A stretch of 64,000 bases of DNA, taken from NCBI GenBank assembly GCA_017509205.1, contig JAFWQF010000019.1:1-64000 (forward strand). The letters are read 5' to 3'. The notes under the pieces are model-generated. The model was not told where the DNA came from. It searched no databases and saw nothing but the letters and a program-made list of their open reading frames with translations. The first letter of the stretch is position 1, and every line of letters starts with the position of its first letter. A program made the translations under genes and the position numbers. Below, piece by piece: positions 2,498 through 23,349 of the stretch. Source of the stretch: Clostridiales bacterium. GTDB taxonomy: Bacteria > Bacillota > Clostridia > Saccharofermentanales > Saccharofermentanaceae.

Positions 2498-3115
2498 TTA
2501 GACACCGCTAATTATGTCAGAAATAGCTGATTTTAAATCGCTGATTCCTTTCTTATCTTTAGATGAAACGGCGAAAACCTGGGCATCTTCCTTGAAATCA
2601 AAATAATCTGATAAGATACCGAGCTGTTTTCTTATCTCGGCGTTGGAAAATTTGTCGCATTTGGTGAAAACGGTAATGTAGGGAATACCCTGACTGTTAA
2701 GGTATTCGAGCATTCCGATGTCTTCTTCTGAAGGAGTCCTTCTTATATCCATAAGAAATAATACGAGGGAGATCTTTCTTCCGCACCTGAAATAGTTGTC
2801 GCAAAGGTCTGAAAACTTTGCAGTTACTTCCTTTGAAGCCGCTGAATAACCATATCCAGGGAGATCTGCAACCAGAGCTTTTCCGTCAAGGTCAAAATAT
2901 ATGATCTCTCTTGTCTTTCCGGGCTTTGAAGATACCCTCGCAAGCTTATTGGAAGAAGCCAGAGCATTGACCAGAGAGGACTTTCCGGCATTTGAACGGC
3001 CTGAGATGACGATCTCGGGAAGGTCAGTAACGGGAAGACCTTTCACGTCAGCACAGGTGATCTTGTATTTCATGTTATTGAAGTTAATGTTCGTATCGTT
3101 CATAAGAATGTTCAC
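2498..3115 (-). CDS. engB: Ribosome biogenesis GTPase EngB/YsxC
   Basis: Essential GTPase of the TrmE-Era-EngA-YihA class that assists late assembly of the large ribosomal subunit. The P-loop GRSNAGKSSLVNAL, a DLPGYGYS switch II motif, TKCDK (G4) and SSKDKKG (G5) are all present in order. The longest frame begins with GTG at 3115, but neither this nor the ATG at 3103 has a clear ribosome binding site; family alignment suggests that the true start may be the internal Met at about residue 15 (MKYKITCADVKGLP). The gene is divergent from comEC with only about 70 bp between them. That gap carries a repeated element described separately, which overlaps the longest-frame start codon. Confidence 0.92.
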   Translation of the reverse strand: MNILMNDTNINFNNMKYKITCADVKGLPVTDLPEIVISGRSNAGKSSLVNALASSNKLARVSSKPGKTREIIYFDLDGKALVADLPGYGYSAASKEVTAKFSDLCDNYFRCGRKISLVLFLMDIRRTPSEEDIGMLEYLNSQGIPYITVFTKCDKFSNAEIRKQLGILSDYFDFKEDAQVFAVSSKDKKGISDLKSAISDIISGV

Positions 3116-3145
3116 TTTGTCGGTAATTGTCGGTTTTTGTATGTA
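3110..3145 (+). repeat. 10-bp direct-repeat element upstream of comEC (copy 1)
   Basis: Three consecutive 10-bp direct repeats (TTGTCGGTAA, TTGTCGGTTT, TTGTATGTAT), preceded by GTTCACT. The same 36-bp arrangement occurs at 20604-20639 in front of the TadE-like cluster, with 33 of 36 positions identical and in the same orientation. The last repeat ends 43 bp before the comEC ATG. No good sigma-A -35/-10 pair is visible in this gap. The element sits in a divergent intergenic region, so it could also act on engB. I read it as a candidate regulator binding site; function is inferred. Confidence 0.55.
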
Positions 3146-3188
3146 TTTTGACGCTGATTTTATCCATGGCGGTCTTTAAAATCGAATC

Positions 3189-5519
3189 ATGACAGATTTT
3201 AACAGAACAGGACCGATTATTCCAAGAACCAGGGCAGACATACTGATGCCGTGTGTCTTGGAACGCCTGATTAACAGGCCTTTGCTGATGCCTGCGCTGA
3301 TTCTTTTCGCTGTCTGTTATATGACTTTTCTTGCGGGAAACCTTATCCCGCTTTGTTTATCAGCGTTGATCATCTTGTCCGCGTGTGTCTTTTCACTGAA
3401 AATACATCAAACAAATCTGTTTTTATGTTCGCTTACATCCCTGATACTCATAGCATTCAGCTGTCTTCGCATGAACGCTGTGCTTAATTCGGCTATTCCT
3501 GAAAGCACTGAAGAGGTTTTCATCGGAACTGTCGTATCATGCGAAAGAAAACTTGCCGGAAAAAACAGAATAACCATTGAAATAGAAGGCGTCAGAGCTG
3601 AATTAAAGCTTGATGAAGAGACTGATCCTTCAAAGATTAAAGCAGGTCAGACACTCAAGATCACCGGAAGGTTCAAAGAGCCTGTAAAACCCGGGAATCC
3701 GGGAGAGTTTGATTATCCCGGATATTTAAGGAGCAAAGGCATCAGATATCTGTTTTATGCAGATTCGTACAGAATAATTGAAAAACCTGATGGAATAAAA
3801 GGTCTGATGCTTTCTTTTCCAGAATTCTGCTTTAATTGCAGAAAATATCTTTTTGATAGATTTACTAACGGCAGGAGCAAGGAAGAAAAGGCTCTTCTGG
3901 CAGCTGTCTGTCTTGGTGATTCTTCTCTTGCGGATGATGAAGTAACACGCGATTTCAGTCTTTCCGGATGTTCGCATCTTCTTGCGGTGTCAGGCACGCA
4001 TTTTGCAGGCTTTCTTGCTGTTTTGCCGTATGTGCTCAATTCTTTGCTTCCTGACAGGAGAAAAGGCTCTCTGATCTACATGTTCTTTGCGTTTCTAATT
4101 GCGTGTCTGACAGGGTGGAGTGAATCCGTCACAAGGTCAGCATTCATGTCTTCGTCAGCATTTGCAGGGAAAGACACGGTTTCTGCTATGGCTGCCGCGG
4201 CTTTGGTCATGATGGCTGCCGACCCGTTCTGTTCGTGCAGGACAGGCTTTCTGCTTAGTTTTTCCGCATGCATATCGATCAGGCTTTTATCAGGAAGAAT
4301 AGATAAATACTTGAAGTTCCTTAAGGAGAAAAAGGCACTGAGATCTGCATTGAGTGCTCAGACAGCAGCAATACTGGGAACACTGCCTTTTACCGGTCTG
4401 ATACAGACTAGGTTAAGCGCCGTGCAGTTTGTCGTACAGGCATTGGGAGGTGTTCTTGCCAAAGCAGTCTGCATGATGTTTGTTCCCGGAGCTGCTTTTT
4501 CACTGTTGTTACCGGTAAACTGTTCATCAGTGTTTTCAATGCCTTCTGCGTTCTTTTTGAATCTCCTTCGTAATCTTGTGAAGACAGGTGCATCGCTTAT
4601 CCTGAAAACAGCCGGCGGCAAGCCTTTGGAACCGTTTTTCGTAATGTGCGTTTGGATGTTTGTGTGTTTAATGCTTTTGCCAACTTTTTCAGTCAGGAAA
4701 ACACTTCTGAAAGTCAGCTGTGCACTGCTTTCCATAAGCCTCGGTCTCACTTTGTCAGGTGCTGTCAGGCCGTTAAGAGCGCAGATCGTATTTGCAGATG
4801 TGGGGCAGGGTGACTGTTGTCTGATAATGACTGGAAACCAAACCGTTCTGATAGACAGCGGAACATTTGAGAAAGGCGATAAACAGGTTTCAGACCTGTT
4901 AGATCATTACGGTATCAGCAGGATCGACATGGCATTCATGACACATTGGGACCAGGATCACGCAGGAGGCCTTGCAGCGCTCGATAATAAAGGCCGGATA
5001 AATGAAATCTATACAGGCTTTACGGAAACAGATCCTGATACTGAAGCTTTCGACAAATCTCTAAGATCACGAAACTGCGATCCTGTTTCATTCCGTAGGA
5101 TTCTTAAGAAGACTGAAGCAGGAGATGTTTTTGAACTTTCTGATGATGTCAGGCTCAAAGTGATATATCCAAAGGAATGTACGACGGGCGGAAATCCGGG
5201 AAGCCTCGTAATACTGCTTAAATGCTGCGGTAAAAGCTTTCTTTTCACCGGGGACATAGGCTCTGATACCGAAGAACTGCTGATAGAACAGGATCTGCTC
5301 CAAGATATTGATATCCTGAAGGTCTCGCATCACGGCTCAAAATACTCCAGTACAGATGGTTTTCTTGCAAAAACATCACCGGAAGTATCAGTGATTTCAG
5401 TCGGCAGGAACAATCTGTACGGCCATCCGTCGCCAAAAGTACTGGAAAGACTGGATTATGCAGGAAGTACCGTTTACAGAACAGATGAGGACGGTGCTGT
5501 AATCTTTGAATTCTATTGA
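3189..5519 (+). CDS. comEC: ComEC/Rec2 DNA-uptake channel protein
   Basis: Inner-membrane channel that imports single-stranded DNA during natural transformation. Residues ~30-200 match the N-terminal DUF4131-like region with two early membrane helices and a soluble segment. Residues ~220-510 are the polytopic Competence domain, including the CSHLLAVSGTHFAGFLAV signature. Residues ~535-775 are a metallo-beta-lactamase domain with FADVGQGDCCLI, THWDQDHAGG (THxDxDH metal motif), FTGDIG and SHHGSKYSS. At 776 residues it is full length for the family. The start ATG at 3189 has no obvious Shine-Dalgarno sequence, so it may be poorly or conditionally translated. It ends 6 bp from the convergent DUF2142 gene. 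No comEA or comEB is next to it. Confidence 0.93.
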   Translation: MTDFNRTGPIIPRTRADILMPCVLERLINRPLLMPALILFAVCYMTFLAGNLIPLCLSALIILSACVFSLKIHQTNLFLCSLTSLILIAFSCLRMNAVLNSAIPESTEEVFIGTVVSCERKLAGKNRITIEIEGVRAELKLDEETDPSKIKAGQTLKITGRFKEPVKPGNPGEFDYPGYLRSKGIRYLFYADSYRIIEKPDGIKGLMLSFPEFCFNCRKYLFDRFTNGRSKEEKALLAAVCLGDSSLADDEVTRDFSLSGCSHLLAVSGTHFAGFLAVLPYVLNSLLPDRRKGSLIYMFFAFLIACLTGWSESVTRSAFMSSSAFAGKDTVSAMAAAALVMMAADPFCSCRTGFLLSFSACISIRLLSGRIDKYLKFLKEKKALRSALSAQTAAILGTLPFTGLIQTRLSAVQFVVQALGGVLAKAVCMMFVPGAAFSLLLPVNCSSVFSMPSAFFLNLLRNLVKTGASLILKTAGGKPLEPFFVMCVWMFVCLMLLPTFSVRKTLLKVSCALLSISLGLTLSGAVRPLRAQIVFADVGQGDCCLIMTGNQTVLIDSGTFEKGDKQVSDLLDHYGISRIDMAFMTHWDQDHAGGLAALDNKGRINEIYTGFTETDPDTEAFDKSLRSRNCDPVSFRRILKKTEAGDVFELSDDVRLKVIYPKECTTGGNPGSLVILLKCCGKSFLFTGDIGSDTEELLIEQDLLQDIDILKVSHHGSKYSSTDGFLAKTSPEVSVISVGRNNLYGHPSPKVLERLDYAGSTVYRTDEDGAVIFEFY

Positions 5520-20585: not shown

Positions 20586-20612
20586 CGCCCGGTGATCCCG
20601 GGCGTTCATTTT
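20586..20612 (+). terminator. Terminator-like hairpin after pheT
   Basis: CGCCCGG (20586-20592) pairs with CCGGGCG with a short TGATC loop, followed by a T-rich stretch TTCATTTTG. The T tract is interrupted, and it merges into the repeated element at 20604-20639. Confidence 0.6.
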
Positions 20613-20639
20613 GTCGGTTTTTGTCGGTTTTTGTATGTA
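20604..20639 (+). repeat. 10-bp direct-repeat element upstream of the TadE-like cluster (copy 2)
   Basis: GTTCATT followed by TTGTCGGTTT, TTGTCGGTTT and TTGTATGTAA: three 10-bp direct repeats, the third divergent. It matches 3110-3145 upstream of comEC at 33 of 36 positions, same orientation. It ends 57 bp before the ATG of the first TadE-like gene. TTATCCA occurs downstream of both copies (3160-3166 and 20666-20672) at distances differing by about one helical turn. No sigma-A promoter is evident. Candidate site for a shared activator or alternative sigma factor. Confidence 0.55.
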
Positions 20640-20696
20640 AATTCCGCCCCCGTTCCGTTGTAAGATTATCCAAATCTTCATACGGGGGTGAAATAT

Positions 20697-20978
20697 ATGT
20701 CCACACTTGAATCGGCTATCGTATTCACACTGATCCTGACATTGCTGACCTTTATGGTGACCGCTCCTGAATCCACGGCCATTATGGCTTTTGACGACTG
20801 CAGGCACGGCTTTGAAGAGAGCAGCTTTCAGAACACTGACAAAAAGCTTCTCAGCGAAAAGAAGATTGGCAATGTCGTTTCTTATGACACGTCTCCTGAA
20901 AAGCTCTGCACATATCTTACCGGGCTTTCCGACAATTTCCGTCTTGTTTACGGAAAAGCCGCAAGCTTAGCAAGCTGA
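20697..20978 (+). CDS. Small TadE-like pseudopilin-type membrane protein
   Basis: 93 residues, with a membrane helix right at the N-terminus (MSTLESAIVFTLILTLLTFMV) and a short soluble C-terminal part. The hydrophobic segment with a Glu at position 5 resembles a mature TadE/type IV pilin helix, but there is no leader peptide with a Gly in front of it. The start ATG at 20697 has GGGGGTG six bases upstream; an in-frame GTG at 20688 would add only MKY. First of three genes in an apparent operon with the DUF5702 and TadE-like genes. It probably belongs to an envelope or pilus-like assembly; exact role unknown. Confidence 0.65.
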   Translation: MSTLESAIVFTLILTLLTFMVTAPESTAIMAFDDCRHGFEESSFQNTDKKLLSEKKIGNVVSYDTSPEKLCTYLTGLSDNFRLVYGKAASLAS

Positions 20979-20989
20979 GGAGGCACGAT

Positions 20990-22354
20990 ATGAGAAGAAG
21001 AGCTAAAGAGAGAAGAACACGTTACGGTGCATCTTCCATATTTCTGGCGATAATCCTGTCGGCCGTGATCCTTGTGGAATGCACATTTCTGACTTTTGTC
21101 TGGGAACTTGATTACATAACCAAGGTTAACAATGCAGTTGATGCACAAGTGGAGAGCATTATGTGCGAATACAACCGCCAGCTCTTTGACGTTTACGGCA
21201 TCTACGCTTTCACGATGACGGCTGTTGATGATGACGTCTACTGCAGCGCACTCCTGGCCTGCGGTTACGAAGAAGGCCCCAAGCTCGATCTCGGCGGATA
21301 CAAGACGATCGACAAGAAGGCTTTGAGAGACGCGATCAACATGTATTACTCATACAGGTCCACAGGAATTGCTATCTGCCAGGTTGCTGACGTCTTTTCG
21401 GAAATGATAGATGAACTCATCAGCGAGGACGTGTTGAAGAAGATCAAGGAATACACTTCAAGCCCCGCGGCGGGCAAAGTCACCGAGATAATCCAGGGTG
21501 CTGAAAAGATCAGTTCCTGGTTCGAAAAGGCCGGAGAAAAGTTGAATATAAACAACTACAAGAAAGAACTGGAGATCCTTGAATCGCTGCAGAAGAAGAT
21601 CAGCAGTGATGACAACGATCTGGAAGACCTGTCTTTCAACATCAGCATAAAGGACATGAAACCTGCAATACAGCTGTTTGAAGGCCTCATGGATCTTCAT
21701 GAGACGCTCGGAAAGAACAGCTTTCTCTTGGTATCCCACATTAATCAGGCTAACTACTATGCGTACAACTTTGACTGTTCGCTTAAGCAGGATATTGACT
21801 CATCCATAAACGGAACGGCATTTTCGGACATCCACAGCAAGAATCAGGACGATTCCGAATACATTTTGACGGGATTAAAAGGTACAAAGGCCCTTGCGGC
21901 AGTGAATTTCCTTATGCTTCAGGTACTGACGGGAACCAATTTCCTCAGGGATTACGCTGACAAAGCATACAGGGCCAAGGTGGATGCCGTGGCAAAGGTC
22001 ATTTCTGCGATAATCGCAGCCTGCTCTGAAGGCTCGGTGGATATCGATTACAGGATAATCACGGTTGCCCTGATCGTTCTGATCGCAACATTCAAGGCAG
22101 GCAAGGACATACAGACATTAAGGAACGGCGAACGTGTCTCGCTTTATGAGAAGAACGGCAAAAAGGTCGTTACGGCGGGATACAGGGATTTCCTGTTCCT
22201 GTTCATGCAGGCAGTTCCTGATGAACTGATGCAGGAAAGGGCTCTTCTGGTCCTTAGAAGGGATTACGGCAATCTTTATACTGGTCTTACCGCAACAGCG
22301 GACACCGGGATAAAGAAGATCAGCGTAACAAGAAGCTATGCGCTTTACGGGTGA
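20990..22354 (+). CDS. DUF5702-type membrane-anchored protein
   Basis: 454 residues: a basic N-terminus, a membrane helix at ~15-37 (FLAIILSAVILVECTFLTFVW), then a large extracytoplasmic helical region containing SIMCEYNRQLFDVYGIYAF, the signature of the DUF5702/TadG-like proteins found beside TadE-like genes in Clostridia. A hydrophobic segment lies at ~350-372. The ribosome binding site GAGGAGG precedes the ATG. It overlaps the next gene region by a few bases at most. Function not known; the context suggests a Tad-like surface or pilus-associated structure without the ATPase and channel genes nearby. Confidence 0.65.
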   Translation: MRRRAKERRTRYGASSIFLAIILSAVILVECTFLTFVWELDYITKVNNAVDAQVESIMCEYNRQLFDVYGIYAFTMTAVDDDVYCSALLACGYEEGPKLDLGGYKTIDKKALRDAINMYYSYRSTGIAICQVADVFSEMIDELISEDVLKKIKEYTSSPAAGKVTEIIQGAEKISSWFEKAGEKLNINNYKKELEILESLQKKISSDDNDLEDLSFNISIKDMKPAIQLFEGLMDLHETLGKNSFLLVSHINQANYYAYNFDCSLKQDIDSSINGTAFSDIHSKNQDDSEYILTGLKGTKALAAVNFLMLQVLTGTNFLRDYADKAYRAKVDAVAKVISAIIAACSEGSVDIDYRIITVALIVLIATFKAGKDIQTLRNGERVSLYEKNGKKVVTAGYRDFLFLFMQAVPDELMQERALLVLRRDYGNLYTGLTATADTGIKKISVTRSYALYG

Positions 22355-22359
22355 ACCAT

Positions 22360-23349
22360 ATGAAAGACAAAAAGGGAAGTGTAACGGTAGAATCAGCCAT
22401 CTGCTTTACGGGCGTGCTTATTCTTTTGGCATGCATAATAAGTGCTTTGAATCTGTACAGGACAGACATTCTCATGACAAGGTCAGTCAATCAGTGCTGC
22501 GAGAACCTTTCTCTGCTTTATCCTCTTACCGTGCCTGCCGGTGATGCCGCATCCGTGCTCTTAAACGCGTTCCCGGATACAGGAGTTGAAGGAACAAAGG
22601 CCGGCTCTGTGCTTGGAACCGTGGCAAAAGCAGTAGGCGGACTCGATTCCGTATCAGGTCATAAGCTTGAGGAATCCGTTCTGGACGGCGTTCTTGCAGG
22701 CACTATGGCCAAGAATATTGCAAACAACTATAAGCAGCGTAACGGAGGATCTTCGTTCTTCTGTCCGGATGACATTGACGTAAGGTTCGACATAAGCTCA
22801 AAGAGACACATTATCGAAGTTACGACTGAATACTCCGTCCTGACTGTGGCAGGAAGAAAATACAGAACCATTTACTCCGTGATCCCGCTTTACGGTGATT
22901 CTTCGCTTATTTTGCAGGGTGATGACCCGAAAAACGGCAGCGGAGACATCTGGGGGCTTGATAATTTTAAGAGGGGAGAGGCTTTCAGAAAGCTCTTCGG
23001 GACAAATCTGCCAAAGACTTACCCCGTAATCGACAGCAATGACAACGGGAACGTCAATTCTCTCAAATCAATTGACCTGACTGCTCCATACTACAAGTCA
23101 AACTCAAAGATCAACAAGAGCATTAAGTCTGACATTGACCGTCTGGGCAACTTCAGCGGTGCGGACAAGAACATAAACGGCAAAGAATACAGTGTTAAGA
23201 ACATAAAAAGCAGGACTCTTACGGTCGTGATACCCAAAAATTCGCCCCAGGAACGCAAAAATACTGTAAAATCCCTTACGGAGTATGCAAAGGGCAAAGG
23301 CGTCAAGCTGGTTATCAAAGAATACGGCACTTCGACAAAATACTCCTGA
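22360..23349 (+). CDS. TadE-like minor pseudopilin
   Basis: 329 residues. The N-terminus MKDKKGSVTVESAICFTGVLI looks like a TadE prepilin: a short basic leader, Gly, then a mature helix with Glu at +5 after the Gly. The helix runs to about residue 30, and the rest is a soluble extracytoplasmic domain. I start at the ATG at 22360, seven bases after GGGTG, instead of the overlapping GTG at 22351. The C-terminal part (DNFKRGEAFRKLF, then a K/N-rich segment) is not recognised. It ends the three-gene cluster. Cleavage would need a prepilin peptidase encoded elsewhere. Confidence 0.68.
   Translation: MKDKKGSVTVESAICFTGVLILLACIISALNLYRTDILMTRSVNQCCENLSLLYPLTVPAGDAASVLLNAFPDTGVEGTKAGSVLGTVAKAVGGLDSVSGHKLEESVLDGVLAGTMAKNIANNYKQRNGGSSFFCPDDIDVRFDISSKRHIIEVTTEYSVLTVAGRKYRTIYSVIPLYGDSSLILQGDDPKNGSGDIWGLDNFKRGEAFRKLFGTNLPKTYPVIDSNDNGNVNSLKSIDLTAPYYKSNSKINKSIKSDIDRLGNFSGADKNINGKEYSVKNIKSRTLTVVIPKNSPQERKNTVKSLTEYAKGKGVKLVIKEYGTSTKYS

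Follow-up and report, generated by a model that had tools for sequence, protein, structure and literature searches.

In the window, by which we mean the whole 64,000-nucleotide stretch of Clostridiales DNA that was analysed, comEC and a TadE-like pilin operon are preceded by nearly the same array of 10-bp direct repeats. This element very probably constitutes the operator and the core promoter of a competence regulon, which a receiver-less Spo0A-family protein would directly activate. The gene set found behind the arrays strongly supports the existence of a competence regulon, and the identity of its regulator as a Spo0A-family protein is suggested by the resemblance of the repeat unit to the 0A box of Spo0A.

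Repeat arrays and the genes behind them

Positions 3110-3145 and 20604-20639, which are on the same strand, are identical at 33 of 36 positions. This agreement and the 10-bp direct repeats had been pointed out in an earlier note on this DNA and were confirmed by a recount, as were the distances of 43 and 57 bp between the array ends and the start codons at 3189 and 20697. The array of comEC exhibits TTGTCGGT at 3117 and 3127 and TTGTATGT at 3137, and that of the TadE-like operon exhibits TTGTCGGT at 20611 and 20621 and TTGTATGT at 20631. When up to 3 mismatches are allowed, the 29-bp core matches the window at these two places and nowhere else; 100 dinucleotide-preserving shuffles gave no match. 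The features of the two loci are the following.

3117..3144, + strand: three 0A-like boxes with a 10-bp period, 5' of comEC; the comEC array is also present in three named relatives
3148..3155, + strand: likely fourth, degenerate box TTGACGCT, 29 nt before the comEC -10
3177..3182, + strand: -10 hexamer TAAAAT of comEC, 40 nt from the third box, no -35; present in 4 of 4 comEC promoters
3189..5519, + strand: comEC, DNA-uptake channel (Pfam Competence 2.8e-28, DUF4131, Lactamase_B)
20611..20638, + strand: three 0A-like boxes with a 10-bp period, 5' of the TadE-like pilin operon; array shared by 13 named loci
20661..20666, + strand: -10 hexamer TAAGAT of the TadE operon, 30 nt from the third box, no -35; kept in relatives
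20697..20978, + strand: first operon gene, short pilin-like protein (MSTLESAIVF...), no Pfam match; conserved behind arrays (protein cluster 2)
20990..22354, + strand: second operon gene, weak DUF5702 match (5.7e-5, below the Pfam cut-off)
22351..23349, + strand: third operon gene, pilin-like N-terminus and CdiA-CT(EC869)-like nuclease-fold domain (PF21111 and fold match)

In support of the likely fourth box of comEC, L058, L083, and L117 retain TTGACGCTG in their comEC promoters. The earlier note had reported that neither site has a good sigma-A promoter. This holds for the -35, which is missing at both sites, and not for the -10, which is present at both. It had also reported the motif TTATCCA at both sites. 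The motif is present, and this appears to be a coincidence: its start is offset from the first unit by 43 nt in the comEC promoter and by 55 nt in that of the pilin operon, and the three other comEC promoters that were compared do not contain it. We rejected it as a part of the element because it is neither in register between the two sites nor found in the other comEC promoters.

The element was then sought in the assembly to which the window belongs (2.38 Mb, 125 contigs, 93% complete). At up to 3 mismatches, the pattern scan gave 21 matches, versus none in the reversed control, and these, together with a further scan, collapse to 18 separate sites. Twelve of these sites precede a gene on the same strand, as listed below.

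Contig C14: array before comEC and array before the TadE operon
Contig C66: array before comM, with dprA next and then topA (by eye)
Contig C51: arrays before comEA and recA
Contig C32: array before an operon with the tad ATPase (T2SSE match at C32:7976)
Contigs C29, C62, C78, C92, and C106: arrays before five members of an unnamed nuclease-like family (about 250-290 aa; C92 member by eye)
Contig C89: array before one gene without an assigned function

The presence of the element before comEA, comM-dprA, recA, the tadA-containing operon, comEC, and the TadE operon supports the common competence or surface-structure regulator that had been suggested from the window. As a rough estimate that assumes 1000-2000 transcription units, the probability of finding these six core operons among 18 sites by chance is 1e-11 to 2e-13. 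Many hits without a link to competence, or inside genes, had been named beforehand as the mark of a generic repeat; instead, 11 of the 12 gene-preceding sites are located before competence, recombination, pilus, or nuclease-like genes, and no site lies inside an ORF of more than 97 aa, except for ORFs that merely start at an array TTG. The six other sites (C9, C10, C44, C48, C91, and C107) have no same-strand gene behind them, some being placed between convergent genes; therefore, not every copy fits the regulon. Five of these copies (C9:9151, C44:48802, C107:6481, C91:3131, and C48:18563) comprise two units followed by TATG, and several of the gene-less two-unit copies share the flank TGTTCACA. 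They may mark small RNAs or serve as decoys.

An exact pattern scan of a collection of 84,980 genomes gave 81 genome-contig stretches, nearly all from rumen Clostridia labelled Saccharofermentans, Mageeibacillus, Ruminococcaceae, Clostridia, or Clostridiales. Eighty loci were examined, L129 being left out. In 66 of the 80, all in named relatives, the downstream protein falls in one of eight gene groups: the nuclease-like family (16), the TadE operon (13), the tad ATPase operon (13), ComM (8), ComEA (6), an unnamed group (4), ComEC (3), and RecA (3). Nine more loci show no grouped downstream protein, several because the contig or locus ends there. Among the relatives, the cultured Ruminococcaceae bacterium AB4001 has an array in front of recA. 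Four loci from other phyla (L081, L085, L094, and L125) and one with a different, longer tandem repeat (L124) were left out of the clustering. Among 59 relatives, the own genome included, the two-unit TTGTCGGT pattern is found in 21 and the three-unit TTGTCG pattern in 35, and the reversed controls of both patterns gave zero everywhere.

The arrays extend to some other families of the order. At up to 2 mismatches, 10 of 19 genomes from these families have matches, with 2 control matches over the 19 genomes, and 10 of the 27 loci examined (37 places listed) precede ComEA, ComEC, ComM, RecA, or TadE-type proteins. The signal outside the own family is clear in G037 and G042 and weak elsewhere. 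At the same threshold, no array was found in 9 of the 19 genomes, though all 19 have a Spo0A_C protein. Arrays were also seen before toxin-antitoxin-like genes (L230, L236, and L255, in G029 and G011; RelE/HicA/HicB-like, by eye), which may be co-regulated with competence. Eight viral contig stretches (L130-L137) contain tandem repeats of TTGTCGGTAA with a different flank, which are probably unrelated to the genome arrays. A mobile or viral origin of the arrays was rejected, viral contigs giving only these eight stretches, with a flank that differs from that of the genome arrays.

The unnamed nuclease-like family, found behind many arrays (e.g., L127:3203-3952, L014:1160-1963, and L019:639-1448), often has several members in one genome, every one of them behind an array of its own. 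Its first member showed no PDB sequence match and no Pfam match above the cut-off, and Foldseek alone gave nothing for the structural model (pLDDT 84) at E up to 0.001. In a check of the model for the PD-(D/E)XK fold, TnsA came first (1f1z, Z 8.7, rmsd 3.2, 110 aligned; 1t0f, Z 8.6), followed by other nucleases mixed with unrelated structures. The C-terminal half is modelled as a putative restriction-endonuclease-like fold, closest to TnsA. In the TadE operon, PF21111 is present in 10 of 10 orthologues of the third gene, and the fold of this domain matches 4zqu (Z 12.9, rmsd 2.7, 106 aligned) and 4g6u (Z 12.5), the next match being at 7.0. The product of 22351-23349 could be a DNA-cutting or DNA-holding pilus subunit. 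With regard to pilus ATPases, the own genome encodes the tad ATPase (C32) and a PilT-like ATPase that is cut by the contig end (L309, on C73; PilT by eye); one further, weak match reads by eye as an ABC protein. A PilB/ComGA-type pilus was considered as an alternative uptake device and set aside. Because of the PilT-like ATPase on C73, the genome may encode a type IV pilus in addition to the tad pilus, and a second pilus system may have escaped the assembly, which is 93% complete.

Box sequence and promoter geometry

Upstream of comM orthologues that were chosen by protein similarity and not by motif, TTGTCG is the top-ranked 6-mer within 130 nt, with 54 occurrences observed versus 2.0 expected, in 25 of 30 genomes. 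In several members of the genus, the units upstream of comM are TTGTCGAA, four of them in tandem in G029. This unit contains TGTCGAA, the core of the 0A box, in which Spo0A contacts G2, C4, and G5 according to the relevant part of PMC3485338. All three bases are kept in TTGTCGGT, in both full units of the window arrays. Positions 6-7 of the core are GT in the window arrays and AA in the relatives, and the third unit, TTGTATGT, is degenerate. Across seven genomes, 39 loci with arrays of TTGTCGAA or a related type were examined, and in 28 of them the array stands before a member of the protein groups named above. One clade, which includes G003 and G034, has irregular comM boxes that lie at a greater distance from the gene. 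From these comparisons, we propose that the TTGTCGGT box derives from the 0A box TTGTCGAA and has drifted in the clade of the window.

LytTR-type sites (ComE/AgrA) are direct repeats about 21 bp apart, whereas the period of the arrays is 10 bp; ComK sites are AT-box pairs. The earlier note had already set the repeat apart from both types; its sequence and spacing would fit the 0A box, which occurs in tandem, one turn apart, at abrB and spoIIG.

We aligned 76 promoters of the grouped genes on the third unit and scored hexamers with at least 5 of 6 matches to TATAAT. Such a -10 hexamer is found at +29 or +30 in 33 of the 76 promoters and at +40 in 7, including all four comEC promoters, compared with a mean of 0.47 -10-like hexamers per offset in shuffled sequence. 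Many of the promoters inspected exhibit, at +30, a hexamer below the 5/6 cut: TAAGAT (TadE), TATTCT (ComM), or TATGCT (ComEA). No -35 was seen at a matching distance in the aligned promoters, its place being occupied by the third unit. The fixed distance of the -10 and the missing -35 therefore indicate, as far as sequence can tell, that the array promoters are activator-dependent. In comEC, comEA, and many nuclease-like genes, the ATG is located about 6 nt past the -10; the corresponding mRNAs should therefore be leaderless.

A Spo0A-family protein as candidate regulator

The own genome encodes one candidate for the activator.

G000:C109:5797-6330: Spo0A-family protein without a recognisable receiver, about 179 aa

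Proteins of the Spo0A_C family are present in 57 of the 59 genomes, with one match each except for a broken one in G050, and are mostly about 180-210 aa long in the relatives. The own protein scores 33.3 bits against PF08769 (Spo0A_C; cut-off 25), and only the Spo0A chains 1fc3 and 1lq1 were significant in a PDB profile search (5e-17). All 18 aligned members match PF08769 at E up to 0.1, and none of the 18 matches Response_reg at that threshold, below which a remnant is possible. Against the Spo0A equivalog TIGR02875, the own protein scores 24.5 bits, the cut-off being 200. SpoIVA (SpoIVA_ATPase) was detected in the B. subtilis positive control and in none of the 59 genomes; on this one marker, sporulation is therefore unlikely in these genomes. 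By its domain, the protein is thus classed in the Spo0A family, and it appears to lack two defining features of Spo0A, namely the receiver and sporulation.

As the protein is near-universal in the searched genomes, its presence alone does not single it out. Its link to the arrays is suggested by the box sequence and the gene set, taken together with this near-universal presence. In the proposed model, two to four, typically three, direct repeats of TTGTCGGT stand in tandem, one helical turn apart, and the receiver-less protein would bind them head to tail. The gene-proximal box would abut the place of the missing -35, where the bound protein would act as a class II activator and bring RNA polymerase to the -10, located 29-30 nt away. 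Activation of the array promoters would switch on both DNA uptake (comEA, comEC, and the tad pilus) and processing and recombination (comM-dprA, recA, and the nuclease-like genes). The tad pilus presumably serves DNA uptake, and the Spo0A family would have been kept in this lineage for this function instead of sporulation. The broader proposal is evenly balanced between true and false: throughout this SpoIVA-less order, a Spo0A relative stripped of its receiver would be the direct master activator of transformation, acting via tandem 0A-box arrays that changed from TTGTCGAA to TTGTCGGT in one clade, with the tad pilus and its nuclease-fold pilin as the uptake device.

It is unlikely that the arrays bind another regulator, such as a response regulator of the OmpR type, and that the Spo0A-like protein is unrelated to them. 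OmpR-type response regulators also use head-to-tail sites about one turn apart, and G005 and G021 have array-like comM promoters, while no Spo0A-like protein was found in either genome. In a search in which 9 of 12 genomes matched, two species with arrays like those of G005, namely G060 and G061, do have the protein; G021 stays an exception. The Spo0A-like gene also carries no array of its own: no boxes precede it in G000, TGTCG/CGACA is absent upstream of it in 26 of 30 genomes, and autoregulation was rejected, TTGTCG not being among its top upstream 6-mers in the 30 genomes. What speaks for the Spo0A-family protein and against another regulator is the box itself, since the unit of the relatives holds the published 0A core and every array type seen retains the three contacted bases in its full units. 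No residue of the recognition helix separates the TTGTCGGT and TTGTCGAA box types cleanly among the 30 genus genomes and G018, and therefore no recognition-helix code is claimed.

Upstream of the Spo0A-like gene in L161, at about 1096-1190, a terminator-like hairpin with a conserved AAAGTCTCA loop (AGTCTCA) was observed. A second AGTCTCA copy precedes the hairpin, and GTCTCA is found upstream of the gene in 19 of 30 genus genomes. Rfam gave one match at this locus, far below the gathering score.

It is still less probable that the element is mainly a repressor operator, at which the protein would block the -35 region and the genes would be derepressed under stress. The last box does touch the place of the -35, and Spo0A represses some genes elsewhere, but these promoters have no -35 to block, and the -10 is at a fixed distance from the boxes, as expected of activator-dependent promoters. 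A generic interspersed repeat, present before these genes by chance only, is very improbable: 6 of the 18 own sites adjoin the end of a gene or lie between two convergent ones, several of them carrying the TGTTCACA flank, and some arrays of relatives precede toxin-antitoxin-like genes, but the same gene families are targeted in many species with different box sequences, and the shuffled and reversed controls of the window, the own genome, and the 59 relatives gave none.

Comparison with known systems

Activation by a Spo0A-family protein would bear on the retention of Spo0A by bacteria that do not sporulate. Non-spore-forming Firmicutes encoding Spo0A, among them the genomospecies BVAB3, are described in PMC3533761, and a recent loss of sporulation or an alternate role was suggested in PMC6136694. 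In the relevant passages of these two papers, competence is not proposed as this role, and the reason for which many non-spore-forming Firmicutes retain Spo0A is left open. If true, a shortened Spo0A relative running DNA uptake in this order would be a concrete answer. Our search of open-licence papers found no Spo0A-type competence regulator in this order and no receiver-less Spo0A. The protein is also a candidate master regulator of competence in Clostridia from the rumen and in other anaerobic Clostridia, for which a set of promoters is at hand as well; both would be of interest for the genetic manipulation of these bacteria and for the way in which genes spread in the rumen. The arrays would further be an example of an operator that drifts while its regulon stays.

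The candidate regulator shares with the Spo0A of Bacillus and Clostridioides the DNA-binding domain family Spo0A_C, and the arrays share with the 0A box the core TGTCG with the contacted G2, C4, and G5, relatives having TTGTCGAA arrays. Unlike Spo0A, the candidate has no recognisable receiver domain, and therefore no phosphorelay input is evident. The targets also differ, being competence and tad genes in genomes of which none of the 59 has SpoIVA, and the box of the window's clade is TTGTCGGT.

In the ComK regulon of Bacilli, one regulator jointly activates com genes, dprA, recA, and a pilus. The same functions would be placed here under one proposed regulator, and both the type of site and the regulator family differ from those of ComK. 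In B. subtilis, Spo0A acts on competence via the timing of ComK, as stated in the part of PMC3297582 that deals with it. For the alphaproteobacterium Liberibacter crescens, the corresponding part of PMC8513845 describes experiments on DNA uptake that depends on the Tad pilus. As in L. crescens, tad and com genes would act together in the lineage of the window; in contrast to the experiments carried out there, co-regulation is read here from a shared operator in the sequence.
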